Positions 3,125 to 17,125 of a DNA stretch of 17,709 nucleotides are shown here, piece by piece. Every line of letters begins with the position of its first letter. Within the stretch, counting starts at the first letter, position 1. The stretch covers positions 1-17,709 of the forward strand of contig NYZA01000076.1 of the NCBI GenBank assembly GCA_002686955.1, given 5' to 3'. Source of the DNA: Gemmatimonadota bacterium. Lineage in GTDB: Bacteria; GCA-2686955. Made by a program: the position numbers and the translations under genes. Below the pieces are notes generated by a model, which saw only the letters and a program-made list of their open reading frames with translations, had not been told where the DNA came from and did not search any database.

Positions 3125-6124
3125 TCACCCTCCCGACGCCACCACCAAGCGCGCTCGTTCCTCGCATCGCGCGACCTCCAACTTCCAGCCGAGCAATCCG
3201 AATAGCTCCGCCGCCCGATCGAACCGCCGTTTCGCCATCACGGCGTTCCCCTGCTGGAGACAGAATTCTCCAAGTGCCGCGGAGCTGCACGCCGCCGCCA
3301 AACGAGAGGTCGCCGACCAAGCGATGAGGTTCTTGAAGAAGGGGCTTTGGCGTTCGATGCAGTCGATCCGGGCCTGCCCTCGAATGAAGGCCAGGCAGGC
3401 GATCAGCTCTTCGAGAGCGGCCGACTCGGGCTGCACCGGTGCGGAGATATCGAGCGCGCTCGCGAGCGCCCGCCCCCCTGCATCGAGCCGGCTCTCGATG
3501 CGCAAACGCCAGAGCTGCCAGTGATCCCCATCCACTGTCTTCGGTAGCAGAGCGACCAGTGTTTCGATCTCATCCTCTCGATAGGGAGGGCCGGACAGAG
3601 TCTCAACGAGGAGCTCGAGCATCCGAGAATCCCGCTCATCACTCACCACCAGAGGGTTCTCCGACCAGCGTCGGTATCGAAGCAACGACTCTTTCGCGAC
3701 CAGTTCATCACCGGCGAGCACCGCGGCGATCGTCTGGTTGTGGAAGACCTGGCCTCGCAATCCGAGATCGGCGGCGGCCGAGGCGAGCGCGAAGCATTTC
3801 AGCGCGTATCGGCACCGCCCATTCTTGACCGCGAGCGTCCCGAGGGCGGTATGGAGCTGAGCGCGCCGGGTATCGGATTCACTCGCACGAGCCGCCCGCA
3901 GCGCTTTCTCACCTTTGTCGAGGATCTCACCCGATGAACTTGAATCGGTGCCCGGGCTCCAGAACGCCGCTCTGACGATTCCGTCGAGTTGAAGAGCGGG
4001 TTGCTGAGCCGCTAGAAAACGCTCCGTGTAGTGCGATAGGGCCGCATAGGACGCACGTTCACCACTCAGCCGTAGGCGTTTCGCCAGGAGGAGGATCGAG
4101 GAATCTGCCAACTGGCACCGCCTTTTTCGGCGATCGATGTGAAAGTCGAGGATTTCGCGCCTGAGGGTACCGCGGGATCGCGCGTCATCAGGGCCTCCTG
4201 CCCGCTCCGCCGCCGAGCACTCCATCACGCGGAGCCAGAGCTCTCCCATCCGAATCATGGGGTGCTGTTCGATCCCATCCCCAATCCCGCGGGACTCTTT
4301 CCAGCGCCTCAGGTCGGCCCGACACAGATCGAAATCGGCGGCCTCCGAGTCGAGATGCCATGGCCAGCTCGCGACGAGTGCCCTCATGCATCGGCCCTCG
4401 AGACCCTGCGCGGCCGCCACCCGGGCGAGCAGTCGGAAGCGTCGGCCAGCTTCTTCCGATCGACCGGTCGCAGCAAGGGCGTAGGCGATTCGGTGGTGGA
4501 GCATCCAGGCAGCGCGGGACCACGGTGGCAGCAAGTCGAGCGTTGTCTCGGCTGCATCCACGCTCGGGCGCCTCTCATGTCCGAGCTTTTGGCGGAGCTG
4601 GGCTTTTCGAATGTGCCAGAAGGGAGGGAGAAGATCCTCGCGCAGTCCTAACGCCAAGCAATTCAGCTCTTCGGAGCGGCTCGCACCCTTCCGTCGCCAA
4701 GCCGCTGCTCTCCTGAATCGCCGCCGAGCAGTCTCCGCGTCTCCCAGGCGCGCATGCGCGGCGATGGCGCTCAGATCTCGACCGCGCCCTCGATCGAGGG
4801 ATTCCTTCGATTCCCAGCGGCCGGCTCCCTCGATCGCGGAGAGATCCGGCATCGAGAGGCGCGACGCCAGAAAGACGGCCAGATCCGGCGCGCCGCGCAC
4901 CAATCGATTCCAGCCACCGGGTATCGGCTCCGGAGGATCGGTTCCGTCTCGCGGGCTCAGGATCGTCTTCGCCGCATAGGCCCGCAATGCGCCGACGTCC
5001 CCGACCTGGGATTCCAGCCAGTCGGCCAGGGGCGGCAAGAGCTCGCGCCGCTTATCGGGATCGATCAGACCGGGGTGACCGGTGATCAGCAAACCTTCGT
5101 CGATCTCGGCACCCACGACCCGTGCCAGCCGTGCCATTCGGCGCATGGGGATCGGCGTCACCGGCAGATCGGCCTCATCCCACCCCCGTTCCGCCCAGCT
5201 CTTCGGTGGAGGATCCCCCGCATACACAATCGTGGTTGCCCCCTCCCGATCGGCGAGCTCTCGAAGCGGATCCCAGCACGCCTCGCTCATCTCATCGCCG
5301 AAGACAACGATCGGCTCGTGGTGGTCGAGCGCCACTCCCACCAGTGGCCCCTTCGCGCCGCGGCTCCAGGCCAGCGCGCATTTCGGTTGGCTCGACAGCC
5401 GAAGCATGCTCGCCAAACGCCGCAGCAGCCACGATCGCCTGCTCCCCGGCGGACCGTTCAGCCGAATCGCGCGTCGGCCCCCTCTTCGAACCGATCTCCG
5501 CGCCTCCGCCGACAAACGCCCAAGCGCATCGCATTTCAGCAAACCGCGGGTTGGATCGAAGCGTGGCGACCGCCGGATCGAGCTACGCGACAGACTTTTC
5601 AAAGCCCGGCGCGACTGTCTCACATCGACGTAGCGGTGAATCGGCAGCGACGCGGTCATCGCATCGAGCCACCAGGTCCACGCCGAGACATCGAGGCCTT
5701 GCGTGGATTCCAGCGCTGATTCCACTCCGCTGTGCCACCAATGAGACGTTGGATCGGCATCGCCCGGAGGGGCTTCGCCGCTGACGAGGCGGACTGCCAA
5801 GAGGCCGACCGCGTACAGGTCGGCGGCGAAAGACACGTTATCTCCTTCGGGCTCAACGCCGTCGATCCGCCGGAAGATCTCAGGCGCTATGTGGCCTTTC
5901 GTGCCGTGGATCCTGTCCAACGACCGCGCTTCGCCGGGCCGCATCGCGTGTCCGAGATCGATGATGGTCACTCGATCTCCATCGACCAGCACGTTCGCCG
6001 GAGTCAGATCGAGGTGCAGCCAGCCGTGGCCGTGGAGCACCGAAAGGGCATCGAGCAGGCCGGCCAGCAGGGGAAGGGCGCGGTCGATCGGGATCGGTCC
6101 CCGCGGCCACGGCTCTCCCGGCAC
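3125..6124 (-). CDS. Ser/Thr kinase C-lobe fused to degenerate ATPase and helical-repeat region (PknK-like layout)
   Basis: This 999-residue frame starts with GTG at 6124 and begins inside a protein kinase domain, just after the hinge. It carries the catalytic loop HLDLTPAN (Asp39, Asn44), DLG in place of DFG (Asp56), APE (80-82) and the helix-F Asp102. The catalytic-loop Lys is replaced by Thr41. Residues ~200-450 resemble a STAND/AAA-type ATPase. The Walker A is degenerate (LNGPPGSRRS, 222-231, without Lys), the Walker B-like segment is IVVFGDE (272-278), and an ITGHPGL motif lies further on. Residues ~480-999 are Ala/Arg/Leu-rich paired helices typical of TPR-like arrays. This order matches kinase-ATPase-TPR regulators such as PknK. 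The ATP-binding N-lobe is encoded just upstream in another frame (6126-6389), so the kinase is split or frameshifted. No membrane segment is visible, so it is probably a cytosolic signalling protein. Confidence 0.82.
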   Translation of the reverse strand: MPGEPWPRGPIPIDRALPLLAGLLDALSVLHGHGWLHLDLTPANVLVDGDRVTIIDLGHAMRPGEARSLDRIHGTKGHIAPEIFRRIDGVEPEGDNVSFAADLYAVGLLAVRLVSGEAPPGDADPTSHWWHSGVESALESTQGLDVSAWTWWLDAMTASLPIHRYVDVRQSRRALKSLSRSSIRRSPRFDPTRGLLKCDALGRLSAEARRSVRRGGRRAIRLNGPPGSRRSWLLRRLASMLRLSSQPKCALAWSRGAKGPLVGVALDHHEPIVVFGDEMSEACWDPLRELADREGATTIVYAGDPPPKSWAERGWDEADLPVTPIPMRRMARLARVVGAEIDEGLLITGHPGLIDPDKRRELLPPLADWLESQVGDVGALRAYAAKTILSPRDGTDPPEPIPGGWNRLVRGAPDLAVFLASRLSMPDLSAIEGAGRWESKESLDRGRGRDLSAIAAHARLGDAETARRRFRRAAAWRRKGASRSEELNCLALGLREDLLPPFWHIRKAQLRQKLGHERRPSVDAAETTLDLLPPWSRAAWMLHHRIAYALAATGRSEEAGRRFRLLARVAAAQGLEGRCMRALVASWPWHLDSEAADFDLCRADLRRWKESRGIGDGIEQHPMIRMGELWLRVMECSAAERAGGPDDARSRGTLRREILDFHIDRRKRRCQLADSSILLLAKRLRLSGERASYAALSHYTERFLAAQQPALQLDGIVRAAFWSPGTDSSSSGEILDKGEKALRAARASESDTRRAQLHTALGTLAVKNGRCRYALKCFALASAAADLGLRGQVFHNQTIAAVLAGDELVAKESLLRYRRWSENPLVVSDERDSRMLELLVETLSGPPYREDEIETLVALLPKTVDGDHWQLWRLRIESRLDAGGRALASALDISAPVQPESAALEELIACLAFIRGQARIDCIERQSPFFKNLIAWSATSRLAAACSSAALGEFCLQQGNAVMAKRRFDRAAELFGLLGWKLEVARCEERARLVVASGG

Positions 6125-6134
6125 CTTACTCCAT
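6122..6134 (-). other. Frame break in the kinase hinge
   Basis: The minus strand reads ATG GAG TAA G GTG. The upstream N-lobe frame ends in FLVME then TAA. The downstream frame resumes as V-P-G-E-P, exactly where a kinase hinge would read LVMExVPGE. Four bases (TAAG) occupy the place of one codon. The downstream frame has its own TGA at 6136-6134, so a continuous protein would need a +1 shift within about three codons. GGAG (6132-6129) could also serve as a ribosome site for the GTG start at 6124. Confidence 0.85.
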
Positions 6135-6389
6135 CACGAGAAATGGGCCATCGATCCCCTCGATGCCGTCTACACGCGGCGCCAGGTCGAGGGCGCGGAC
6201 GATGTTCTCGCCCCCGATGACGCTCCCGAGGGCGAACTCCCGCGCCAGTGCGTCCACATCCCCGCCTCGCGCGGTTTTGATCACCACCGGCGCGTCGTTC
6301 AACGCATCGCTGCCGTACCAGACATGCGCTCGCTTTGCGTCTCGTCCATCGGCCGAGAACCTCGCGGATCGAGGTGCGTGCTTGCTCAT
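6126..6389 (-). CDS. Ser/Thr kinase N-lobe (ATP-binding half; frame-broken from the downstream kinase gene)
   Basis: This 87-residue frame starts at ATG 6389 (MSKHAPRSARF) and ends FLVME-stop. It holds the N-lobe of the kinase: a poorly conserved glycine loop, the ATP-anchoring Lys in APVVIKTAR, a helix-C-like segment (DVDALAREFALGSVIGGENI) and the strand leading to the hinge. Alone it cannot be a kinase. Joined in the +1 frame to the 3125-6124 product it would complete one, about 1,088 residues long. The frame is open up to 6488, but that start would overlap the preceding gene and its first residues resemble nothing, so I prefer 6389. The ribosome site there is weak (GGTGG). The gap to the upstream small gene is 37 nt, so they are probably cotranscribed. 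It may be a real split gene, a mutation or a sequence error. Confidence 0.7.
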   Translation of the reverse strand: MSKHAPRSARFSADGRDAKRAHVWYGSDALNDAPVVIKTARGGDVDALAREFALGSVIGGENIVRALDLAPRVDGIEGIDGPFLVME

Positions 6390-6426
6390 ACCACCGTCAT
6401 CGGTGTCCCATCTCCCTTCGTGCCTT

Positions 6427-6819
6427 TCAGGAGGGGTCGGGAATCTGGAGTGGAAAGTCGTCCTTGATGACCCACGGATCATCCCCATCCTTGAGCCAAA
6501 CGCGAATATCCCACTCCGACGGATCCGGCATGTCCTCGTCGATCCCGTGCGGGTGCTGAATCTCGAAGGGATCGGAGTCTACGGTGTGGGTGTTGGGACC
6601 GTCCCCCGTGCGCGTCTCGCTGGAACCGGTGTCGGTTCGCTTGAAGTCGGTCTTGAGCCTGACGTCGTGCGGCAGCGACGGCTGCCCGGCCACGCGCGTG
6701 AGCGTGCCCAGCAGATTGACGGTGCCTCCCGTATCGACCGGGACCGGCTCGTTGATCTGATTCTTCGACTGAAAATTGTCGACGGCGATAACGGTGAGAT
6801 TCCAATCAGAGTTTGCCAT
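6427..6819 (-). CDS. Small acidic hypothetical protein upstream of the kinase
   Basis: I do not recognise this 130-residue protein. It starts MANSDWNLTVIAVDN. The ATG at 6819 has AAGGGA about 9 nt upstream; the frame extends to 6918, but the extra 33 residues are Arg/Ser-rich and look non-coding. The sequence is acidic, with alternating hydrophobic positions, a Gly/Thr-rich turn region and an Asp/Pro/Trp-rich C-terminus (EWDIRVWLKDGDDPWVI), suggesting an all-beta domain. There is no signal peptide, membrane segment, Cys pair or catalytic signature. It lies 37 nt before the kinase N-lobe gene on the same strand. It may be a partner, substrate or sensor of that kinase, but only its position supports this. 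Confidence 0.72.
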   Translation of the reverse strand: MANSDWNLTVIAVDNFQSKNQINEPVPVDTGGTVNLLGTLTRVAGQPSLPHDVRLKTDFKRTDTGSSETRTGDGPNTHTVDSDPFEIQHPHGIDEDMPDPSEWDIRVWLKDGDDPWVIKDDFPLQIPDPS

Positions 6820-7079: not shown

Positions 7080-8513
7080 CTACGGCGCCGACCCCTCACG
7101 GTCACACCAGCGTACCATCGCGCCGACGCAAGCTCTCCCATCGTGGTGCCACATCATCGAGGGAGTCGCCATCTGGCCCGGCGGGCAGATTCGGGTGGCG
7201 CCGAGCCGTGCGAGGGCCTCGCGAAGAGCCGCGGCATCGTCTTCATTCGCACCCAGCTCGATCGCGACGTTCTGCAGCCATCTTCGCGCGGGACGCAGCC
7301 GTTCGAGAACCGCATTGATCGATTCGTGCGGAACGATCCGCAAGAAACGATCGAGCGGCGAGGGCGGTAGACCGTCGACGTCCTCGACGAGGATCGTCCA
7401 CGCGCTGCTCCGATCGGTGGGCGTGAGCAGCCGAGTCGGCGAGCCGAGCGCCTCTGAGATCTCCGCCACGCCCCGAAGCTGCGCGAGCGCTGCCGCTAGC
7501 GCGGGCTCGAGTACCCGCGGCGGGAGCTCCTCACGCCAACGCTCCATCTGTCGGCCCACATCCACGCCGAGCTCGGCACAAGCGTCGAACGATCCCAGAG
7601 CCAGCACCACGTGCGGCGAGAGACAAGCATGTTGGTCGAAGACGGTGGCGTCGTAGGCGAGCCGCGCCGCCAGATCGTCTCTCGACTCGGCATCTTCCGG
7701 CACGCCAACGATCGATACACCCAGCCGGTGACCGTGAAAGAGGAGCGGTAGCCCCGCCGGCATCCGCGCGCGCAGCTCCCGCTCCGCCTGGGTTCCCCCG
7801 TAGGCGACCACGAAATCGGTCTCGTCGAAAAAGCTCGTCCAATGGGTTTCGGCCTCCCGCTCCCACCAAAGAACCCCCAAGCAGGATGCGAGGTCGGCGT
7901 CGATCTCTTCGAGGCTGCGAAGATAGAGGGGAAGAAAGGCCGGCTCCCCGGCCGACGAACGTCCCAGACAGGCCGATTTCACCAGGAGCGCTCGCATGAT
8001 CGTCAGGTGGGGCAGCGCTGGAATGTTGGCGCTGAAGACGCCGCCTACCAGGCCCGGACCGAACGCTCGATTCTCACCACCGGGCGCCAGGTGCCCGGAG
8101 GACCGGAAGCGGTCGAGCGCCGCCGGATCGCCGACCTCCGAACGCAGACACGCAAGCAGATGATCTCCGCGCGATGAACGTTGCTCGAGCTCGATAGCCA
8201 GCGCCACCATTTCGGGGGAATGCCCAGTGATTCTCGGGATCGTCTCGATCGCCGTCCGTCGATGAGGATCGCTCGGATCGAGCCAGCGAATCGCAGTCTC
8301 GTCCAGCCTATCCACGATTTCGGCGATGGGACGTCGCTGCAGCTCCCTTTCCGCTCGGCCCCGTAGCGCGCGCGCCGCTTCGGCCAGAGCATCCGAGGTG
8401 ATGCAAGGCATCTCCACGTCGAAATCGCCGTGCTCGGGCGTTGCGTGGCGCCGCGGTCGCACGTCATCAACCAGATGCCGCAGCTCGGCCGGAAGCCACC
8501 AGCCCTTGGTCAT
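7080..8513 (-). CDS. luxC: LuxC-family acyl-CoA / acyl-protein reductase
   Basis: This 477-residue protein belongs to the LuxC family, which reduces an activated acyl group to an aldehyde with NADPH through an acyl-cysteine intermediate. Visible family features are the Gly-rich segment GPGLVGGVFSANIPALPH (152-169), an AYGG motif (237-240), the nucleophile region DQHACLSPHVV with Cys297 (equivalent to Cys286 of Vibrio harveyi LuxC) and a C-terminal PGQM...WHHDGR segment. Length is normal for the family (~480). It starts with ATG overlapping the stop of the luxE-like gene by 4 nt (ATGA), so the two are translationally coupled, as expected for subunits of a fatty-acid reductase complex. No luciferase (luxAB) or acyl-transferase (luxD) gene is present, so a role in light emission is unlikely. 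It is the last gene of the operon. The natural acyl substrate is unknown. Confidence 0.92.
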   Translation of the reverse strand: MTKGWWLPAELRHLVDDVRPRRHATPEHGDFDVEMPCITSDALAEAARALRGRAERELQRRPIAEIVDRLDETAIRWLDPSDPHRRTAIETIPRITGHSPEMVALAIELEQRSSRGDHLLACLRSEVGDPAALDRFRSSGHLAPGGENRAFGPGLVGGVFSANIPALPHLTIMRALLVKSACLGRSSAGEPAFLPLYLRSLEEIDADLASCLGVLWWEREAETHWTSFFDETDFVVAYGGTQAERELRARMPAGLPLLFHGHRLGVSIVGVPEDAESRDDLAARLAYDATVFDQHACLSPHVVLALGSFDACAELGVDVGRQMERWREELPPRVLEPALAAALAQLRGVAEISEALGSPTRLLTPTDRSSAWTILVEDVDGLPPSPLDRFLRIVPHESINAVLERLRPARRWLQNVAIELGANEDDAAALREALARLGATRICPPGQMATPSMMWHHDGRACVGAMVRWCDREGSAP

Positions 8514-9601
8514 TGCGACAACATTTCATCGATCGTCAACGAACAGCCCCGGCTCTCGGCTCCCTTGGCTCTCCCGTCAATCTCGAAACCGCCATTCTCG
8601 AGGCGCCGCCCGATATCGTCGCTTTGCACCACGATCGGGCGCTCGAAGTTCGCGAGATCGACATGCAGAAGCAGCCCGGGTCGGCCCGGTGGAAGTGGAT
8701 CGAGCGTGATCGGATCGACCACTTCCGTACGGGTCCAGGGTGGGTTCACTTTGAATCGGGGCGCGGGCCGACCATCGCGCATGACATTGTCGTACATCTG
8801 GCTCGCGATCTCCGTCATCCCCAGCAGATTCACGCATCGTTCGGCCGGGATACCGAGTCGTGACTCGAAAGCCGCATTCAGTTCGTCACGATCCGCCTCA
8901 CGTGAGCGCCCCTTGAAACCTCCCGCATCCATCGCGCGCGAGCCGTGAGCGAGTGAAAAAGAGAGATCTCTCTCGGCCATTGCCTCGAAAAGGTGAACGA
9001 ACCCGAACGACGCGCCGATCAATGTCAGCGGTATTTCCTCCCGCTCCGAGTCCGCGAAAGCCCGCATCAACCCCGCGGAGTCCAGTCCCTCCGATCCGAT
9101 CAGGAAGCGACTTCCGGCCAATCCGTGCTCCCGGCGAAGCTGCTCCATCCCATGCGCCATGATCATATGAGGAGCTGCTTCCGGCGGCGGCGCGAGGATT
9201 AGAATCCGTGTTGCTCGTTCGTCGGGCAGGAGCATTGCGCGCGCGTTGACGCGAATCGCTTCCGCCATCAGCTCGAGCCCCTGGTCGCTGAAGAGAGCTC
9301 GGCCCGGCTTCGATCCGCTTGTGCCGCTGGTTCGAAACTCCCGAGGTGGATCGTCGCCGGCGAAGAGCTCGAATCGGCGAAAGGCCTCCGTCGGAACGGC
9401 GGGAATGTCGCGCCACTTTCGCATCGAATCGGGATCGACCGATCGCGCTTCGCAGAGGGCTCGAAAGGGGGGAATCTCGTCGTAGTGCCAGCGAGCGATC
9501 CGGACGGCAAGGGAGTCGAAGCGCTCTTCGGGCCAGGGCGCCATGCCACTCGAAATCGCCGCTTTCAGCTCATCGTACAGGGTGGGTTTCGGACGCTTCA
9601 T
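8510..9601 (-). CDS. luxE: LuxE-family acyl-protein synthetase (carboxylate-activating)
   Basis: This 363-residue protein belongs to the LuxE family. Members use ATP to make an acyl-adenylate from a free acid, move the acyl group to a Cys near their own C-terminus, then pass it to LuxC. The adenylate-forming signature FRTSGTSGSKPG is at residues 89-100. A GMTEIASQMYDN segment in the second half resembles the downstream motif of adenylating enzymes. Cys353, in ESRGCSL ten residues from the end, fits the acyl-carrying Cys described for Photobacterium LuxE. Start is ATG at 9601, 12 nt after the flavoprotein gene. The C-terminus overlaps luxC by 4 nt. The intact motifs suggest activity on a free carboxylic acid, probably made by the preceding enzymes (inference). 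Confidence 0.9.
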   Translation of the reverse strand: MKRPKPTLYDELKAAISSGMAPWPEERFDSLAVRIARWHYDEIPPFRALCEARSVDPDSMRKWRDIPAVPTEAFRRFELFAGDDPPREFRTSGTSGSKPGRALFSDQGLELMAEAIRVNARAMLLPDERATRILILAPPPEAAPHMIMAHGMEQLRREHGLAGSRFLIGSEGLDSAGLMRAFADSEREEIPLTLIGASFGFVHLFEAMAERDLSFSLAHGSRAMDAGGFKGRSREADRDELNAAFESRLGIPAERCVNLLGMTEIASQMYDNVMRDGRPAPRFKVNPPWTRTEVVDPITLDPLPPGRPGLLLHVDLANFERPIVVQSDDIGRRLENGGFEIDGRAKGAESRGCSLTIDEMLSQ

Positions 9602-9613
9602 GCCCTTTCGATT

Positions 9614-10849
9614 CTACCATTCCGTTGCGTGAACGGTCCCCAGCTTCTCCGCGATCAGCCGGTGTATCCAATCGCGGGCGTCACCAGTGTCGATCGTTTC
9701 GTCTTCACAGATCTCGCCAACCGAGCGAACACCATCGATCGCATCCAGGAAGTCCCGTGGAATCGCGCAACGCTCCACCGCATGCGCGATCGGTCCCAGC
9801 AGAACCGGTATCATCGAATCTTCGATCGGCGGAAGATCGCGATGATCCTCCGCGATCGGACCATCGGTCGCCGCGTAAGCGAAAAGTGGAGGCTCCTCGC
9901 CGAACTTCCCGCGGAAAACATGCCGATATGCGCCGAAGCCGGCATTGACACCATCGCCGATCGCCATTGCTGTAGACGCGTATCTACCGGTGATGTCCCC
10001 GGCTACGAAGATGCCCGTCACATTTGTCGCGCAATCGCGGTCGCAATCGACGAAGCCTCGGTCGCCTTTTCGCAAGGCAAGACCTTCGATCGCAAAGCTC
10101 GGTGCCAGCTCGAAGCCGTTGTAGTCGAGCAAAAGCGCGCCGCATTCGAGCACGCGCTCAGTGCCATCGCGACTACTGAGCCGAATCGCCCGGAGCATTC
10201 CCTCGGGACCCGCGAGCAGCTCCACGACTCGGCCCTGAAGCTGTTTGCCCGGCAAGTCCGCCGGATGACCCGCCCCTTCGTCGATCAGCCAAGTGGCCCC
10301 GCCCGCGCGCTCCATTCGGTTGCGCACCAGCCCGGCGATGTGAATCGATTTGCCGTTTCCCGCGATCGCGAGGCCGCGTCCGGCCGCGGCTTCGGTCGCC
10401 CGATCAAGTATCTCCGGGAAGTACTCGTAGCCCATGTAGGTGATGAAGACACCGCGCCCGATGAACTTTGCCTCGTTGCCGAGCGGACGAAACCCTGTCG
10501 CTACGATCACGCTTAGCGCTCGCACACGATTCCCCTTCTCCCCTTCTACCAGGAACACTCCGTCGCTCGATTCGATCGACACCGCCCGATCCGATACGGT
10601 CGGAATCTGAAACCGGTCGAAGTCGGCTCGGAGGTGACGCACCAGTCCATCGCCGCGAAACTTGAACCCTGGGCCGGTCAGGGCGCAGGACCGCCAGGTC
10701 GCGAGTCCACCCAGCTTACCGCTCTCGAACACCACGACCGAGCAGGGGACCGAGCGGTAACTTTTGGTCCAACGCACGCGAATCGCCGCGCTCATCCCCG
10801 CCGGTCCTCCTCCGATTACGGCGACGTCGAAGTCGTACCTCGTTTCCAT
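9614..10849 (-). CDS. Thioredoxin-reductase-like FAD oxidoreductase without redox cysteines, with C-terminal winged-helix-like tail
   Basis: This 411-residue flavoprotein has the FAD-binding VIGGGPAGMSAA (11-22) and the second FAD motif GIFVAGDITG near residue 290, as in thioredoxin-reductase-like enzymes. In the position of the active-site CATC, after GRGV, it reads ITYMGY, so there is no disulfide. The nucleotide-binding motif of the inserted domain is also modified (AIAGNGKSIH). It is therefore unlikely to reduce thioredoxin. It may be a ferredoxin/flavodoxin reductase-type enzyme or oxidise a small molecule. The last ~75 residues (IPRDFLDAIDGVRSVGEI and following helices) resemble the winged-helix fold of PqqD-like domains that serve radical SAM enzymes. 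It starts 3 nt after the aconitase small-subunit gene. One hypothesis is electron delivery to the operon's radical SAM enzyme. Confidence 0.8.
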   Translation of the reverse strand: METRYDFDVAVIGGGPAGMSAAIRVRWTKSYRSVPCSVVVFESGKLGGLATWRSCALTGPGFKFRGDGLVRHLRADFDRFQIPTVSDRAVSIESSDGVFLVEGEKGNRVRALSVIVATGFRPLGNEAKFIGRGVFITYMGYEYFPEILDRATEAAAGRGLAIAGNGKSIHIAGLVRNRMERAGGATWLIDEGAGHPADLPGKQLQGRVVELLAGPEGMLRAIRLSSRDGTERVLECGALLLDYNGFELAPSFAIEGLALRKGDRGFVDCDRDCATNVTGIFVAGDITGRYASTAMAIGDGVNAGFGAYRHVFRGKFGEEPPLFAYAATDGPIAEDHRDLPPIEDSMIPVLLGPIAHAVERCAIPRDFLDAIDGVRSVGEICEDETIDTGDARDWIHRLIAEKLGTVHATEW

Positions 10850-10852
10850 CGG

Positions 10853-11359
10853 TCACCGCCCCTCGCCCCGCGAACGCAGAAAGAGGATCAATCCTCCCGC
10901 TCTCACGACCGCACTCCAGAAAGGGTCGATCGCATCGACGCGAGTCTCGGCGCCTTGTGTTCGATTTCGTAGAAAGAGCCCGTCGAGATCGAGCTCGAGC
11001 GCGTCCCGATCATCGGCGAACGCATTCGCTCCGCTGCAAGTGACCGCGGGAATGCCGAGTGAGCACGCATTGCGAAAAAAAATACGGCCGAACGATGACG
11101 CGACCACCGCTTGAACTCCCGCCATGGCGAGCGCCCGAAGGGTCGTTTCGCGTGACGATCCACATCCGAAGTTCTCTCCCGCGACGACGATTCGTGGCTC
11201 ATCCGTCGATTCCGCCTCATCCTCCCGGCCCGGCACGGCACCGAGGAAGCCGGAGCGCACGGTCTTGTCGTCCAGAGAGTAGAAATAGGAAGGATGCAGT
11301 AGATCGGTGTTGACATCGTCGCCGAAGAGGAGCGCGCTGCCCCGCACAATCCAGCTCAT
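10853..11359 (-). CDS. Aconitase-family small subunit (LeuD / homoaconitase-like swivel domain)
   Basis: This 168-residue protein is the swivelling small subunit of a heterodimeric hydro-lyase, the partner of the large subunit encoded just upstream. It has FGDDVNTDLLHP near the N-terminus, the substrate-binding NFGCGSSRE segment, and VVASSFGRIFFRNACSLGIPAV. Length is normal for the archaeal/short bacterial type. The ATG at 11359 overlaps the stop of the large-subunit gene by 4 nt; upstream in-frame codons lie in the other gene and are not real. The specificity loop after HP reads SYFYS. Homoaconitases there carry YLRT, where Arg meets the extra carboxylate, and isopropylmalate isomerases a hydrophobic version. 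The loop suggests a hydrophobic or uncharged side chain (inference). I give no leuD symbol because the substrate is uncertain. Confidence 0.88.
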   Translation of the reverse strand: MSWIVRGSALLFGDDVNTDLLHPSYFYSLDDKTVRSGFLGAVPGREDEAESTDEPRIVVAGENFGCGSSRETTLRALAMAGVQAVVASSFGRIFFRNACSLGIPAVTCSGANAFADDRDALELDLDGLFLRNRTQGAETRVDAIDPFWSAVVRAGGLILFLRSRGEGR

Positions 11360-12636
11360 GAGACGGTTTTCTCCCGCAGAAGCTCCCTCGGATCGGTGAT
11401 CCGACCGGTGAGCGCGGTGGCCGCCGCCGTCAGCCCACTGGCGAGGTAGACACGCCCTTCCACATCCCCCATGCGTCCCCGGAAATTCCGATTCGATGTC
11501 GAAACACAAACCTCGCCCGCGGCGATCAACCCCTTGTCGATTCCGCCGCACGCCCCGCACGAAGGGTTGGTGACGACCGCGCCGGCGTCGATCAGGTCGG
11601 CGATCCATCCGCGACGCAACGCTTCTCGATAGACGCCCGTCGATGCCGGTGTTACCACCACCTTCACGAAGGCGGGGATGCGCTGGCCGCGCAGTAGAAG
11701 CGCCGCATCGCCAAGCTCTTCAAGCCGTCCTCCGGCGCACGATCCTATGAACACTTGATCGACCTCGATACCCTCGATCGAGGAAACGGGTACCGTATTC
11801 GCCGGAGACCAGGGCTGTGCGATCATCGGTTCGAGGTCGTCGAGCTCTACAGCGATACTCTGCTCGTACTCCGCGTCGTCGTCGGGGTAGAGCTCCGCCT
11901 CCGCGGGCCATTCCCCGCCCATCGAGTGAAAATATTGTCTCGTTCGATCGTCGGGAATCCAGATGCCGTTTTTCGCGCCGCATTCAACAGCCATATTCGA
12001 GAGAGTGAGCCGGCCGTCGAACGCGATGCCGGGAGCATCGCTGCGGTCTTCGAACTCCACGGCCTTGTAGCGCGCCCCCCCCTCGCCCAGATCGCCGAGC
12101 AGCCGAAGCGCAAGGTCCTTGCCGCGCAGATGCTCCGGCATCCGCCCATAGAAAGGCACCCGAATCGCGGGCGGCACGCGGAGCCAAGTCGTGCCCGTAA
12201 GCAGCACCGCCAGAATATCGGTAGAGCCCATGCCGCAGGCGAAGGCACCGAGAGCGCCCGCGGTGGTCGTGTGGGAGTCGGCGCCTACGATCAGGCTGCC
12301 CGGCACGCAACGCGAGCTTTCGACGAGAATCTGGTGACAAATCCCTTCGAAGAGGTGCACCTCTCCCGCGTCGCTGTTCTTCGCGAAGTCGAGGAATCTG
12401 CGAAGGATGTTCGCGCGATCGACCGTGGAGGGCGGAGCGAAATGGTCCGCGACGAGGAATAGTTTCTCAGGGTCGAGAATGCGTTCTATTGCTTCGCCGA
12501 TCTGGTCCACGATCAGCGCGATCGTCGCGTCGTGACCGAGGACGAGATCCGGCTCCACTTCGAAATAGTCGCTGCCCTCCCATTGAGAACCGGTCGCCCG
12601 GGACTCCAAGATACGGCGCGTCAATGTGCGACCCAC
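11356..12636 (-). CDS. Aconitase-family large subunit (LeuC / homoaconitase-like)
   Basis: This 426-residue protein is the [4Fe-4S] subunit of a 3-isopropylmalate dehydratase/homoaconitase-type isomerase, which dehydrates and rehydrates a 2-hydroxy tricarboxylate-like acid. Three cluster ligands are visible: Cys300 in FIGSCAGGRLEEL, and Cys360 and Cys363 in NPSCGACGG. VGADSHTTTAGALGAFACG (118-134) and STSNRNFRGRMG (379-390) are typical of the family. The cluster motif SCAGGR differs from the usual SCTNGR. I chose the GTG at 12636 (MGRTLTRRIL) because it gives the standard N-terminus, has GGAG 8 nt upstream and leaves 2 nt after the previous stop; the longer open frame up to 12858 only shadows the synthase gene. 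It works with the next gene, which overlaps it by 4 nt. Length fits the methanogen-type enzymes. Confidence 0.9.
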   Translation of the reverse strand: MGRTLTRRILESRATGSQWEGSDYFEVEPDLVLGHDATIALIVDQIGEAIERILDPEKLFLVADHFAPPSTVDRANILRRFLDFAKNSDAGEVHLFEGICHQILVESSRCVPGSLIVGADSHTTTAGALGAFACGMGSTDILAVLLTGTTWLRVPPAIRVPFYGRMPEHLRGKDLALRLLGDLGEGGARYKAVEFEDRSDAPGIAFDGRLTLSNMAVECGAKNGIWIPDDRTRQYFHSMGGEWPAEAELYPDDDAEYEQSIAVELDDLEPMIAQPWSPANTVPVSSIEGIEVDQVFIGSCAGGRLEELGDAALLLRGQRIPAFVKVVVTPASTGVYREALRRGWIADLIDAGAVVTNPSCGACGGIDKGLIAAGEVCVSTSNRNFRGRMGDVEGRVYLASGLTAAATALTGRITDPRELLREKTVS

Positions 12637-12638
12637 GA

Positions 12639-13775
12639 TCAAATCTCCGTGTCGCGAACGATCCGGTCGAGAGCTTCGATCGGAACGCCCTCTCCGGGTG
12701 CCTCGGAAGCCCGGCGCAGCGCTTCGGTCTTCACTTCCGAAAGGACCCTGTCGAGATGATCCGGTTCGAGCTCCCTGCCCATCTCGGAGAGTAGCGCCCG
12801 CAGGTGCGCGCGGCCGCTGTGCCGGCCGAGCACGAGAGAGCGGTTTCGTCCTACCCACTCAGGCGGGAATGCTTCGTATGCACGAGGGTTCTTCAGCATT
12901 CCGTCGACATGAATGCCCGACTCGTGGCGAAAAGCGTTGCGGCCGACGATCGGCGCATGGGGCGGCACGGGCAGCCCCGTGGCCTCGGAGACCGCGGTCG
13001 ATAGCCCGGACAGAAGAGTCAAATCGATCGATGTATCGAGCGTCAGAAGGCGCTCACTCGCGCAGACCAGCGCTTCGAGCGCCGCGTTTCCCGCCCGTTC
13101 ACCAATTCCGTTCACCGTGGCCGTGGGCCAACGGAGCCCAGCCTCGATCGCCACCAGCGTGTTGGCCGTGGCGAGCCCGTAGTCGTTGTGGCAGTGGATC
13201 CCGAGCGGCAGATCGATCTGCTCCGAGATCGTCGCGATCAGGGCCGAGATCTCCCTCGGAACCCGGCAGCCGACCGTATCGGCCAAGAAGATCCGCGCCG
13301 CGCCGATGTTCTTCGCGGCGCTCGCCAGAGCGCGGAGGTCGCCGGGCTCCGCTCGGGTCGCGTCTTCAGCGACCACTTCGAGACTGGCACCCTCGCCCTT
13401 GATCAGTCCGGCGCATCGCTCCAGATCGCCCAGGAGGCGGTCCAAGGACGAGCCCAGGCGCTCCACCAGGTGCTCGCGGCTGATCGGACAGATGACGAAG
13501 ACCGCTCTCAGCCCACAGCCGAGAGCCAGCTCCACCGCATCGGGCCGACAGCGCGCCGAGCCCCCGACCACCATGCGCTCGCAGGCCTGCACGGCATCAC
13601 GCAAGAAGGCGCGCTCGTCCTCCCCCAGGGCGGGCATTCCGGCATCGGCCATCGCCACACCGGCTCGATCCAGCATTTGGGCGATTCGCAGCTTCGCTTC
13701 AGGCCGCATCGCAACGCCCGGGGTCTGATCCCCCTCTCTCAATGTGCAATCGACGATGCGAAGGCGATCTCTCAC
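12639..13775 (-). CDS. Homocitrate / 2-isopropylmalate synthase-family enzyme (DRE-TIM, NifV-like length)
   Basis: This 378-residue enzyme would condense acetyl-CoA with a 2-oxoacid to give a 2-substituted malate. The DRE-type motif DCTLREGDQTPG (9-20) supplies the catalytic Arg13 and metal-binding Glu14. HCHNDYGLATAN (194-205) supplies His194 and His196 as metal ligands. VNGIGERAGNAALE (221-234) and FRHESGIHVDG (282-292) complete the signature. It lacks the C-terminal LeuA regulatory domain, so feedback inhibition by leucine is not expected. Length and the AEDATRAE segment are closest to NifV/homocitrate synthase-like enzymes, but no nif gene is nearby and the accepted 2-oxoacid cannot be read with confidence. 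The start is GTG at 13775, overlapping the radical SAM stop by 4 nt. The isomerase subunits follow directly, the order of a chain-elongation pathway. Confidence 0.9.
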   Translation of the reverse strand: MRDRLRIVDCTLREGDQTPGVAMRPEAKLRIAQMLDRAGVAMADAGMPALGEDERAFLRDAVQACERMVVGGSARCRPDAVELALGCGLRAVFVICPISREHLVERLGSSLDRLLGDLERCAGLIKGEGASLEVVAEDATRAEPGDLRALASAAKNIGAARIFLADTVGCRVPREISALIATISEQIDLPLGIHCHNDYGLATANTLVAIEAGLRWPTATVNGIGERAGNAALEALVCASERLLTLDTSIDLTLLSGLSTAVSEATGLPVPPHAPIVGRNAFRHESGIHVDGMLKNPRAYEAFPPEWVGRNRSLVLGRHSGRAHLRALLSEMGRELEPDHLDRVLSEVKTEALRRASEAPGEGVPIEALDRIVRDTEI

Positions 13776-15490
13776 ACCACCACCTCCGTCTCGATCGGCT
13801 GCTCGGGAACCCAGCGTCGCCTGGATCGCTCACCGCGGAGCTCTTCCTCCTCGGCGAGCGCGGCCTCGTAGTCGGCCGCCGTTCCAATGGCGACACGCGG
13901 CGCAGGGTGCCCTCTGCGCCGAGACAATTCGACCCTACGATCGAAACAATGTTGTCTTCCCTCGGCGGGCGCATTCCATTGGCGCGGATCCTTGGCCAAG
14001 AAACAGAACTCCAGACATTTCAGGTGCTGTATATGGCGTTCGAAATCGGCGATCCCACCTTCGTCTCGCTCGTCTCCAAAGTAGTCCAGGATCTTGTAGC
14101 CGAGCGAAGAGTAGGTGTCTGCCCGTTTGCCGCCGTGGGCTTCGTAGAAGTCCGCGAAGCAGTTCCGGTCGGTGAGCATGCCCAGCTCTCTCGGACGCTC
14201 GAACTGAGGCGAGCCCGGTTCGAGCTGCACCGTCCAGGTCATGACCCTGCGGGCATTGCGGAATGTCGTCGCGATCTCCCTCTTCAGGTCGGCCGTTCTG
14301 AGAGCCTGCCCGAGTCGCTCTCCTGGAAGTGCGAGGGTGAAGAAGACGTCGGCAGAGATCTCGAACTCATCGAGGGTCCGCAGCGTTTCGAGAAGCTCGG
14401 CATCGGTATAGAAGGGTTGCTTGTTGAGACGCCTCACCTGCTCGTCGCCCGCATCCGGCGAGATGGCGATGTACGATTCCGGTGAGGGGAAGGTGCGCCG
14501 GAACTCCCGGACGAAACGAGGGGTTGGCAGTCCCCAGCATTCGAAATACAGATCCACGTCGAGCCGCGCCGCGCGAATGCGACGGAAGAGTTCCACGTAG
14601 TAGTCGTCCCGGGTGGGTGTGGGATCGAAACACAGGGCCATCGTTCGATAGCCGAGCTCGCGGGCAAAGCGGATGTCGTCGACGACGCGGTTTTGGGCGC
14701 GCCACACTACCTTCGATGTGCCATTGACCTTCGCGAGCGTGCCGCGGTTGCCGCCGCAGAAGCTACAGATCCAGGGACAGCCTCGCCCAACGAAGAGTGG
14801 GAAGAACGCGCGCCCCATGCTGAGCATGCTCCGGTTCTCATCCGCCGTGAGCTCTCGGGCGTAGGCCAGCGGGAAACCGAAGCTCGTGGCGTAGAGGTCG
14901 GCGTGCCGCATCGTGCCGAGATCGCCGAAGACCAGATCGTCGAGAGGGATAGGCGACACCGCGGACACCCCGGTCTTGGCCGGTCCCCCGGTCTCCGGAT
15001 CTCGGAGGATCAGATTCGGAACCGATCCCAAAGAATCTCCGTTGCTGAGGGCAGCGAGGAGACCCGTGATGACCGATTCGCCATGTCCACGAACCACGGC
15101 GTCAATGAAGCGATAGCGATCGATGATCTCATCCGCGAAGTAGCCCGCCGTGATCCCTCCCAAAAAAATGAACGCTTCCGGGTGCGCCTTGGTCATCGCG
15201 GCGGCGACCTGAATGGTGTCGTAGGCTTGGTAGTGCCAGTAGAGAGGGAAGCCGATCGCCCGAATCCGCCGGCCCTCATAGATATTCTCGACGCTCTGGT
15301 CCGGGTCGGCCAGCCATTCCACGCCCAGATGGCAGATCTCGACGCGCCGGCCCTCTTCATGGAGAAGTTCCGCAATGGCGGGAATCCCCATCGGCATGTA
15401 GGTTATGTTGAAGAAGTCCCCGATCGGAAGGTAGTGGTTGTCGGCCTTCGGAACGTGAACGAAGAGACAGTCGAGATCGTAAGTAGCCAT
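13772..15490 (-). CDS. B12-binding radical SAM enzyme of the operon
   Basis: This 572-residue protein combines an N-terminal cobalamin-binding-type domain (~1-180) with a radical SAM barrel and a C-terminal extension. The cluster motif is RGCPWICSFCGG, with Cys238, Cys242 and Cys245. Before it lie FIFLGGITAGYFADEI and VRGHGESV, typical of B12-binding radical SAM proteins. The canonical DxHxxG cobalamin motif is not seen, as in many relatives. The barrel continues with ECWGLPTPRFVREF, YIAISPDAGDEQVRRLN and a LALPGE segment. Known members methylate unactivated carbons or rearrange rings; here the reaction is unknown. It lies 3 nt after the acyl-CoA dehydrogenase gene and overlaps the synthase gene by 4 nt, so it probably modifies an intermediate of this pathway. 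The ribosome site is weak, consistent with coupled translation. Confidence 0.9.
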   Translation of the reverse strand: MATYDLDCLFVHVPKADNHYLPIGDFFNITYMPMGIPAIAELLHEEGRRVEICHLGVEWLADPDQSVENIYEGRRIRAIGFPLYWHYQAYDTIQVAAAMTKAHPEAFIFLGGITAGYFADEIIDRYRFIDAVVRGHGESVITGLLAALSNGDSLGSVPNLILRDPETGGPAKTGVSAVSPIPLDDLVFGDLGTMRHADLYATSFGFPLAYARELTADENRSMLSMGRAFFPLFVGRGCPWICSFCGGNRGTLAKVNGTSKVVWRAQNRVVDDIRFARELGYRTMALCFDPTPTRDDYYVELFRRIRAARLDVDLYFECWGLPTPRFVREFRRTFPSPESYIAISPDAGDEQVRRLNKQPFYTDAELLETLRTLDEFEISADVFFTLALPGERLGQALRTADLKREIATTFRNARRVMTWTVQLEPGSPQFERPRELGMLTDRNCFADFYEAHGGKRADTYSSLGYKILDYFGDERDEGGIADFERHIQHLKCLEFCFLAKDPRQWNAPAEGRQHCFDRRVELSRRRGHPAPRVAIGTAADYEAALAEEEELRGERSRRRWVPEQPIETEVVV

Positions 15491-15493
15491 CGT

Positions 15494-17125
15494 CTAGTCC
15501 GATCGGAGCATTTCTCCAACCGCTCCCATGTCGCTGAGCAACCCGGCCATTCGGGCGGAATCATGGCTCTCCACTAGCTCGCTTTGCAGCTTCTTGGCCC
15601 CCTCAATCCCCGCATGGTCGCTGGATTCGAGGAATCCGGTCGCGCAGAGCTCGTTTCCGCGCAGCGTTTGTGACATCGCTTTTCGCGCGAACACGCGACA
15701 CATATCCACATCCGTGGGACGATCCGCGGTCCGGCGACAGAAAGCCGCCGCGACTTCGTTTGTCGCTATCGTGTCCGCGAGACTGAACATCACGCTCTGT
15801 TGGCGGGTCAGCTTCGATTTGTGCGCGTGTTGGATCGTCCGGTTCAGCCCTCGGACCGCCGCCGCGACCAGATCCGCGCCGATGTCGGGGCGAGAGCCGT
15901 GGAGTCCGTCCATTTCAGCCGCCAGATCTTCATAAAACGCGCCCTTCGAGCGCACGGTTTCTTTCCATCTGTACAGGGCGATAATATGTTGTTGAATCTC
16001 GCTGGTGCCTTCATAGATCGTCAGGATTCGACAATCGCGGCGGTACTTTTCCACCAGGTATTCACGTACATAGCCATAGCCGCCCAAAGCCTGGACCGCC
16101 GCGTCGGCGGCGCGGTTGGCCGTCTCGGTCGCCCAGAGCTTCGCGATCGATCCCTCGACCTGAAGTCCCTCTTCACCCCGATCGAGCCTGGTCGCGATCT
16201 CTTCGATATATGCCTTGCCGGCGCATAGATCGATCCAGTGCGGCACGAGGAGCTTGAATGTGTACCCCTGCTTGTCGATGAGCTTCGATCCGGACTGCAC
16301 CCGCACCTTCGCATAGGCGATGGCCCGATCGAGAGCGGCGCGAGCTCCACCCAATCCGAACCCTCCAACCATGAGGCGTGTGTAACCAAAAACCTTGTTG
16401 GCCTGGGACAATCCTTCCCCTTCGACGCCTCCGAGCAGATGACTCGCCGGAACTTCGAGATCCTCGAAGACCAGGCCGGTAGTGACCGAAGATCGTATGC
16501 CATGCTTCTCCTCTTGCTTGCCGATCACCAGTCCCTTCGCCCCCTTCTCGACGACGAAAAAGCAGGGCCCCCCCGGGGCCTTCGCCAAAACCGTGTAAAG
16601 ATCGGCGACGCCTCCGTTGGTGATGAACTGCTTCGCGCCGTTCAGGCGGTAGCCGGTGACATCCCCTCCGTCCCCAAGGATCGGCTCGGCGGTTGCGCGA
16701 AGTGCCGACAGATTGCTACCGGCTTCGGGCTCGGTCACCGCGTAGGCGACGATGCAACCCTCTTCGGCGATTCGGCCTAGCCAGTGCGCTCGCTGCTCCT
16801 CCGTCCCGCCTACGATGATCGGATCCGTCCCCAGAGAAACCCCGAGAAAAGCTGTCGCGAGCCCGATGTCGATCGTGGCGATCCGCTCGGCGAAGGCGCA
16901 AATATCGCGCGCCCCCCCACCCAGGCCCCCCACCGATTCTGGAAGAAAGACGAGATGCAGCCCGAGCTCGGGCGAGAGCATCTTCCGGATCAGGGCCTCA
17001 GGGAACTCCTCGCTTGCATCGAGCTCGAGCTGTTTGTCATCGGGAAACTCCCGCTCCAACACCTCCGAGAGGGTCTCGAGCACCATCTCGCGCATATCGG
17101 CGGCCATTCCGGCATTCCGATCCAT
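15494..17125 (-). CDS. Acyl-CoA dehydrogenase with C-terminal extension
   Basis: This 543-residue FAD enzyme would introduce an alpha,beta double bond into an acyl-CoA. It has the family motifs AYAVTEPEAGSNLSAL (127-142), NGAKQFITNGG (162-172), and the catalytic base Glu372 in IYEGTSEIQ. It is ~160 residues longer than a typical ~380-residue member. The extra helical C-terminal part resembles that of VLCAD/ACAD9-type enzymes. I chose ATG 17125 because GAGGAGG lies 5 nt upstream and the product has the normal N-terminus; the longer open frame to 17566 is a shadow of the upstream secreted-protein gene. It is the first gene of the eight-gene run. The electron acceptor (normally ETF) is not encoded here, so it must be supplied elsewhere. 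The substrate is unknown. Confidence 0.92.
   Translation of the reverse strand: MDRNAGMAADMREMVLETLSEVLEREFPDDKQLELDASEEFPEALIRKMLSPELGLHLVFLPESVGGLGGGARDICAFAERIATIDIGLATAFLGVSLGTDPIIVGGTEEQRAHWLGRIAEEGCIVAYAVTEPEAGSNLSALRATAEPILGDGGDVTGYRLNGAKQFITNGGVADLYTVLAKAPGGPCFFVVEKGAKGLVIGKQEEKHGIRSSVTTGLVFEDLEVPASHLLGGVEGEGLSQANKVFGYTRLMVGGFGLGGARAALDRAIAYAKVRVQSGSKLIDKQGYTFKLLVPHWIDLCAGKAYIEEIATRLDRGEEGLQVEGSIAKLWATETANRAADAAVQALGGYGYVREYLVEKYRRDCRILTIYEGTSEIQQHIIALYRWKETVRSKGAFYEDLAAEMDGLHGSRPDIGADLVAAAVRGLNRTIQHAHKSKLTRQQSVMFSLADTIATNEVAAAFCRRTADRPTDVDMCRVFARKAMSQTLRGNELCATGFLESSDHAGIEGAKKLQSELVESHDSARMAGLLSDMGAVGEMLRSD

Follow-up and report, generated by a model that had tools for sequence, protein, structure and literature searches.

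A recurrent seven-gene operon predicted to join alkylmalate formation, B12-radical SAM chemistry and LuxE/LuxC-type carboxylate reduction in uncultured bacteria

The window, by which we mean the whole stretch of 17,709 nucleotides analysed here, is the entire contig C76 (NYZA01000076.1) of a Gemmatimonadota genome (GCA_002686955.1) of 4.28 Mb, which is 84.5% complete. The lineage is an isolated one; the other genomes searched, with the exception of one from the same family, are related to the host at domain level only. One part of the window encodes a secreted-looking subtilase (Peptidase_S8; 880–3036, plus strand) with C-terminal tandem NNGGLLG-type repeats and DNA repeats at 2623–2876. A 999-aa protein (3125–6124, minus strand) follows, with an N-terminal protein kinase domain and a long uncharacterised remainder, and the kinase may begin in a neighbouring ORF in another frame (6126–6488). 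Eight genes occupy the minus strand between 7080 and 17125, and their Pfam and NCBIfam assignments agree with the families named in a preliminary description of this DNA. The one gene left unnamed there encodes a thioredoxin reductase (TrxR)-fold flavoprotein without a CxxC motif. The eight genes are:

15494–17125, minus strand: acyl-CoA dehydrogenase (ACAD), 543 aa, with Pfam Acyl-CoA_dh domains; first gene of the window copy, outside the conserved core and without counterpart in related loci.
13772–15490, minus strand: B12-binding radical SAM enzyme (rSAM), 572 aa, CxxxCxxC at C238/C242/C245; assigned from domains and an AlphaFold model (pLDDT 91.3).
12639–13775, minus strand: 2-alkylmalate synthase of the LeuA/NifV/homocitrate type, 378 aa, without the LeuA regulatory domain; assigned from domains, its own clade and pocket residues.
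11356–12636, minus strand: aconitase-family dehydratase/isomerase large subunit (LeuC-like), 426 aa; assigned from domains and its own clade (100/100).
10853–11359, minus strand: aconitase-family small subunit (LeuD-like), 168 aa, specificity loop SYFYS; assigned from domains and alignment.
9614–10849, minus strand: FADox, a thioredoxin-reductase-fold FAD/NAD(P) oxidoreductase without CxxC and with a C-terminal extension of ∼100 residues; assigned from domains, alignment and model.
8510–9601, minus strand: LuxE-type acyl-protein synthetase, 363 aa, catalytic Cys353 (RGCS) conserved; assigned from Pfam and its own clade (98/95).
7080–8513, minus strand: LuxC-type acyl-protein thioester reductase, 477 aa, active-site Cys297 conserved; assigned from Pfam and alignment.

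The measured spacings are 3 nt (ACAD-rSAM), −4 nt (rSAM-synthase), 2 nt (synthase-LeuC), −4 nt (LeuC-LeuD), 3 nt (LeuD-FADox), 12 nt (FADox-LuxE) and −4 nt (LuxE-LuxC), which bears out the tight packing, with gaps of 2–12 nt and 4-nt overlaps, that had been reported for the eight genes.

To see whether the neighbourhood recurs in other genomes, 84,980 species were scanned using aligned sequences of the radical SAM enzyme. Seven loci (L071–L077) were found at 47–65% identity to the radical SAM enzyme, a number which is a lower bound as the scan relied on two short peptide patterns; all seven lie in metagenome-assembled genomes (MAGs) labelled Deltaproteobacteria, Proteobacteria or Myxococcota. 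The order rSAM-synthase-LeuC-LeuD-FADox-LuxE-LuxC is identical in the window and in L071, L074, L075, L076 and L077, and neighbouring genes in these five loci mostly overlap by a short distance. An unrelated, inverted ATPase gene is inserted between the synthase gene and leuC in L076. Two further genomes, G193 and G194, contain all seven genes split over separate contigs. In G193, rSAM-synthase-LeuC is on one contig and LeuD-FADox-LuxE-LuxC on another; in G194, a contig end truncates rSAM-synthase, and a second contig has LeuC-LeuD-FADox-LuxE-LuxC. The same order in five independent MAG contigs, with all seven genes in two more genomes, exceeds chance, and the co-occurrence that the preliminary description had proposed looking for is therefore found. 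The conserved core consists of the B12-radical SAM enzyme, alkylmalate synthase, LeuC, LeuD, TrxR-like flavoprotein, LuxE and LuxC. The operon had been described as one of eight genes; eight are present in the window, but ACAD has no counterpart in any related locus at E 1e-6. It was consequently rejected as a core gene, and desaturation by this enzyme, previously suggested as a pathway step, is not supported as part of the core.

The flanking genes are not shared between loci, apart from a TetR regulator, which in three of them directly precedes the radical SAM gene. A 2-oxoacid:ferredoxin oxidoreductase adjoining L072 and the rhodopsin/photolyase genes adjoining L071 were set aside on this ground; in the latter locus, from Deltaproteobacteria bacterium UBA2957, a gene resembling bacteriorhodopsin and two ORFs that together make up a DNA photolyase (L071, 7535–9783) immediately precede the operon. 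Radical SAM homologues below ∼40% identity (L078–L123, G095, G148 and G168) have no core partner genes, and no synthase or LeuCD adjoins the LuxE/LuxC pairs seen in other phyla or on plasmids of Azospirillum and Pantoea. Across the two classes searched, the operon-type radical SAM enzyme was detected in 2/71 and 4/52 genomes, which indicates an accessory, sporadic operon; this low frequency also accounts for the small sample of operons. G001, from the same family as the host, yielded no close radical SAM copy and no LuxE match.

Phylogenetic trees place the operon enzymes apart from their housekeeping relatives. The operon synthases form one clade (98/99), separate from LeuA (100/100), from the lysine homocitrate synthases and from NifV and the phosphonomethylmalate synthases; operon LeuC forms its own clade (100/100), as does operon LuxE (98/95), a clade that leaves out the additional LuxE proteins encoded by three of the operon-bearing genomes. 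The three trees are concordant: each joins the window to L071 and the G193/G194 sequences to L074. The placement of these enzymes inside ordinary leucine or lysine clades, which the preliminary description had said would tell against it, was thus not observed. Second, clearly different LuxE proteins are found in three operon-bearing genomes (L138, L139 and L140), with LuxC adjoining in L144, and LuxE/LuxC pairs have therefore diversified within these lineages.

The host also possesses other copies of the biosynthetic families. A LeuA-like synthase lies beside LeuB (LeuB by NCBIfam) on contig C247, a fused LeuC-LeuD is encoded on C134, and on C12 there is a single-chain homoaconitase of the fungal type (L245, 306–2327), which exceeds the TIGR00139 cut-off of 530 with a score of 725 bits and suggests that lysine is synthesized via the alpha-aminoadipate route.

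The substrate of the synthase was approached through its pocket. Five residues are thought to select the 2-oxo acid in HphA, a 2-benzylmalate synthase, according to a 2026 study (PMC12961565). These positions were mapped via 6ktq, and both controls were read correctly (HRTSH for 6ktq and LESNE for 3rmj). The window synthase has S73, E133, V135, F163 and T218 at these sites, and the pattern S-[ENHS]-[VA]-[FYI]-[TS] describes all eight operon synthases. LESNE is present in 26/26 genome-derived rows of the LeuA clade, as in 3rmj, while both lysine homocitrate synthases have HR at sites 1–2 and the NifV/phosphonomethylmalate synthases have W at site 1 and R at site 4. The operon synthase and isomerase thus have neither the LeuA and LeuC clade placement nor the LESNE-type pocket of the leucine pathway, and the synthase is likewise outside the NifV-phosphonomethylmalate synthase clade and without its Trp and Arg. 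One could suppose that housekeeping leucine genes have been displaced to a site beside an unrelated LuxE/LuxC cluster, given that 0/8 genomes have a LeuC above the TIGR00170 cut-off, for which reason the leucine role of the host's fused LeuC-LeuD rests on domain make-up. The fused protein and the LeuA-LeuB pair elsewhere in the host, the rarity of the operon-type radical SAM enzyme and the departure of the synthase pocket from LESNE make this scarcely credible.

Lysine homocitrate synthases hold the side-chain carboxylate of 2-oxoglutarate with a His and an Arg; 8/8 operon synthases have Ser in place of the former and Glu, Asn, His or Ser in place of the latter. In the specificity loop of LeuD, Tyr/Phe stands in place of the Arg of homoaconitase 2pkp, and in plant isomerases substrate preference is determined by this same region (PMC7308503). 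Both replacements, together with the position of the synthase outside the homocitrate synthase and NifV clades and the separate homoaconitase of the host, render homocitrate-type or other dicarboxylate chemistry (for lysine, for nitrogenase homocitrate, or for 2-oxosuberate as in coenzyme B) very improbable. The best NCBIfam models would favour such chemistry, being NifV for the window synthase (347 bits, under the cut-off of 463) and the homoaconitate/isopropylmalate families for LeuC/LeuD.

HphA itself has the pocket A-D-A-M-S and a homologue of it A-N-A-F-S (PMC12961565). The operon pocket is unlike that of each primary-metabolism class and, with modest confidence, appears nearest in kind to that of HphA, the comparison being one of five aligned residues, mostly similar rather than identical; mutants of HphA at D157 or M186 did not give the predicted shift (PMC12961565). 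The pocket and the LeuD loop together point, again modestly, to a side chain that would be bulky and uncharged, perhaps aromatic. The loci have no aromatic aminotransferase in common, nor any other aromatic gene.

None of the operons contains a LeuB-type dehydrogenase, and at least one Iso_dh-family gene is present in every operon-bearing genome. The 2-oxoacid chain elongation of the preliminary description is consequently encoded as far as its synthase/isomerase half, but not in its final step. In the absence of a dedicated LeuB, a substituted maleate or a 3-alkylmalate may be the end point. Alternatively, one-carbon elongation could be completed by the ordinary LeuB of the host, giving a homologated 2-oxo acid to be modified and then reduced by LuxE/LuxC. 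HphA-HphCD-HphB perform such an elongation, LeuB enzymes can be permissive, and the Iso_dh-family gene of the host is LeuB by NCBIfam. Clusters that need a dedicated dehydrogenase often encode one, however, as with HphB, and none of the operons does so; we regard complete elongation as unlikely, although it deserves to be kept in mind.

The radical SAM enzyme carries the B12-binding domain, radical SAM domain and CxxxCxxC motif of the B12-dependent methyltransferases. The CxxxCxxC is invariant, and C492, C496 and C515 are invariant in the operon copies and in four sequences of A1. The nearest folds to the AlphaFold model are MgmA, TsrM and CysS, which are B12-dependent radical SAM methyltransferases and which the operon enzyme also resembles in domain order. 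Methyl transfer is the likeliest activity predicted from the model, and other chemistry is possible for this fold because OxsB and AprD4 are among the structural matches. The TIGR04190 (Ta0216) family of B12-binding radical SAM proteins has the same domain order and CxxxCxxC, but the operon enzymes score 143–179 bits against its cut-off of 500 and are thus a separate family. FADox has the fold of TrxR and ferredoxin-NADP-reductase. The redox-active CxxC of thioredoxin reductase is absent from 6/6 copies of A6, the window protein having ITYMGYEYF at this position. The FADox model is fair (pLDDT 83, TM under 0.5) and does not separate a TrxR-like from a ferredoxin-NADP-reductase-like function; a fold of this kind lacking CxxC would suit electron donation or redox tailoring.

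LuxE activates free acids with ATP. The window proteins have the expected family domains (Pfam, 78.8 bits for LuxE and 233.9 bits for LuxC), both can be aligned to the corresponding chains of 7xc6, and the catalytic cysteines, LuxE Cys353 (RGCS) and LuxC Cys297 (ACLxP), are invariant. The NCBIfam bioluminescence equivalog cut-offs were missed by a wide distance (56.6 of 550 and 66.7 of 750 bits), and there is no luciferase among the identified genes of the window. The catalytic cysteines and the adjacent, overlapping genes are shared with LuxC-LuxE of the lux operon, whereas the window operon has no nearby luciferase or LuxD, belongs to a different clade and gives no sign of a fatty acid substrate. 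Tetradecanoic acid is a substrate of LuxE/LuxC in luminous bacteria, and one can envisage a lipid pathway in which the operon pair supplies fatty aldehyde to the formation of an ether lipid, a plasmalogen or a hydrocarbon, with a long-chain 2-oxo acid being extended by the synthase. The nearest structure is 7xc6, the radical SAM enzyme is weakly similar to ladderane and hopanoid models, and the small pocket residues of the synthase would admit a long chain too. We consider this rather improbable, as no acyltransferase, glycosyltransferase or carrier protein is common to the loci, the LuxE of the operon and the second LuxE found in the same genomes belong to different clades, and the one clear lipid enzyme, ACAD, is not conserved.

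The reading that we prefer is one of four steps. From its family and pocket residues, the synthase would condense acetyl-CoA with a 2-oxo acid that is bulky and uncharged, the phenylpyruvate/4-hydroxyphenylpyruvate type being the likeliest, and so generate a 2-alkyl- or 2-benzyl-malate, which LeuC/LeuD would dehydrate to a substituted maleate or isomerize to a 3-alkylmalate. At a third step, which may come earlier or later in the order, the B12-radical SAM enzyme would alter an unactivated carbon, methylation being the likeliest change, and the TrxR-like flavoprotein is the putative electron donor or redox tailoring enzyme. Finally, by the chemistry of their families, LuxE would activate a free carboxylate with ATP and carry it on Cys353, and LuxC would reduce the LuxE thioester with NADPH to an aldehyde; the resulting semialdehyde could cyclize to a lactol with the second carboxylate. 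The two halves fit together without CoA thioesters or a carrier protein, since LeuA/LeuCD chemistry yields free diacids that LuxE can use.

Gene content, conserved order, co-occurrence, separate clades, intact catalytic residues and the absent LeuB form the basis of this scheme, and from them the chemistry is inferred. The dedicated pathway that had been proposed is supported, in that the neighbourhood recurs and the synthase, LeuC and LuxE lie outside ordinary clades; the branched or unsaturated aldehyde suggested along with it is a conjectural product. We put the chance at about even that the seven-gene core is a dedicated accessory, probably specialized-metabolite, alkylmalate-to-aldehyde pathway with the steps as set out above.

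Several known systems share parts of this gene set. The HphA/HphCD/HphB homophenylalanine-homotyrosine pathway of cyanobacteria similarly has a synthase, with a pocket similar in kind, and a LeuCD-type isomerase, but it has its own dehydrogenase, lacks the radical SAM enzyme, flavoprotein, LuxE and LuxC, and makes amino acids. The pantaphos (hvr) phosphonate cluster of Pantoea also combines a synthase (HvrC) and LeuCD (HvrDE) without LeuB, and is proposed to stop at a substituted maleate (PMC7858074), after which flavin chemistry follows. It differs in needing PEP mutase, in a synthase of a NifV-related clade with a W/R pocket, and in having no LuxE/LuxC or B12-radical SAM enzyme. A cluster resembling the hvr operon was seen on a plasmid of Pantoea agglomerans from onion leaf (L129, NZ_CP134747.1). 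On a Streptomyces scopuliridis plasmid (L128, NZ_CP109092.1), a phosphonate-type cluster with PEP mutase family, phosphonomethylmalate-synthase-like, aconitase and isopropylmalate-dehydrogenase-like genes adjoins a lanM lanthipeptide gene. The leucine (LeuA-LeuC-LeuD-LeuB) and alpha-aminoadipate lysine pathways use the same enzyme families for the first two steps and differ from the operon in clades and pocket residues.

A literature search for the gene set found no published pathway, in agreement with the earlier statement that no characterized system has it, and alkylmalate formation, B12-radical chemistry and CoA-independent carboxylate reduction are joined in none of the papers searched. 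Every enzyme is from a known superfamily, and there is a fair chance that the product is of a new class. More specifically, and as a tentative proposal somewhat short of even, the operon may specify an undescribed natural-product or cofactor pathway, sporadic in Myxococcota-like lineages and an isolated phylum, in which a benzylmalate-/alkylmaleate-type diacid is remodelled by the B12-radical SAM enzyme and has one of its free carboxylates reduced by LuxE/LuxC, the product being an aldehyde or lactol of a new class. With seven enzymes the pathway is compact and open to direct reconstitution or heterologous expression. If correct, these proposals would extend the use of LuxE/LuxC beyond fatty acids, provide a function for a branch of TIGR04190-like radical SAM enzymes and, probably, add a new metabolite from uncultured bacteria.
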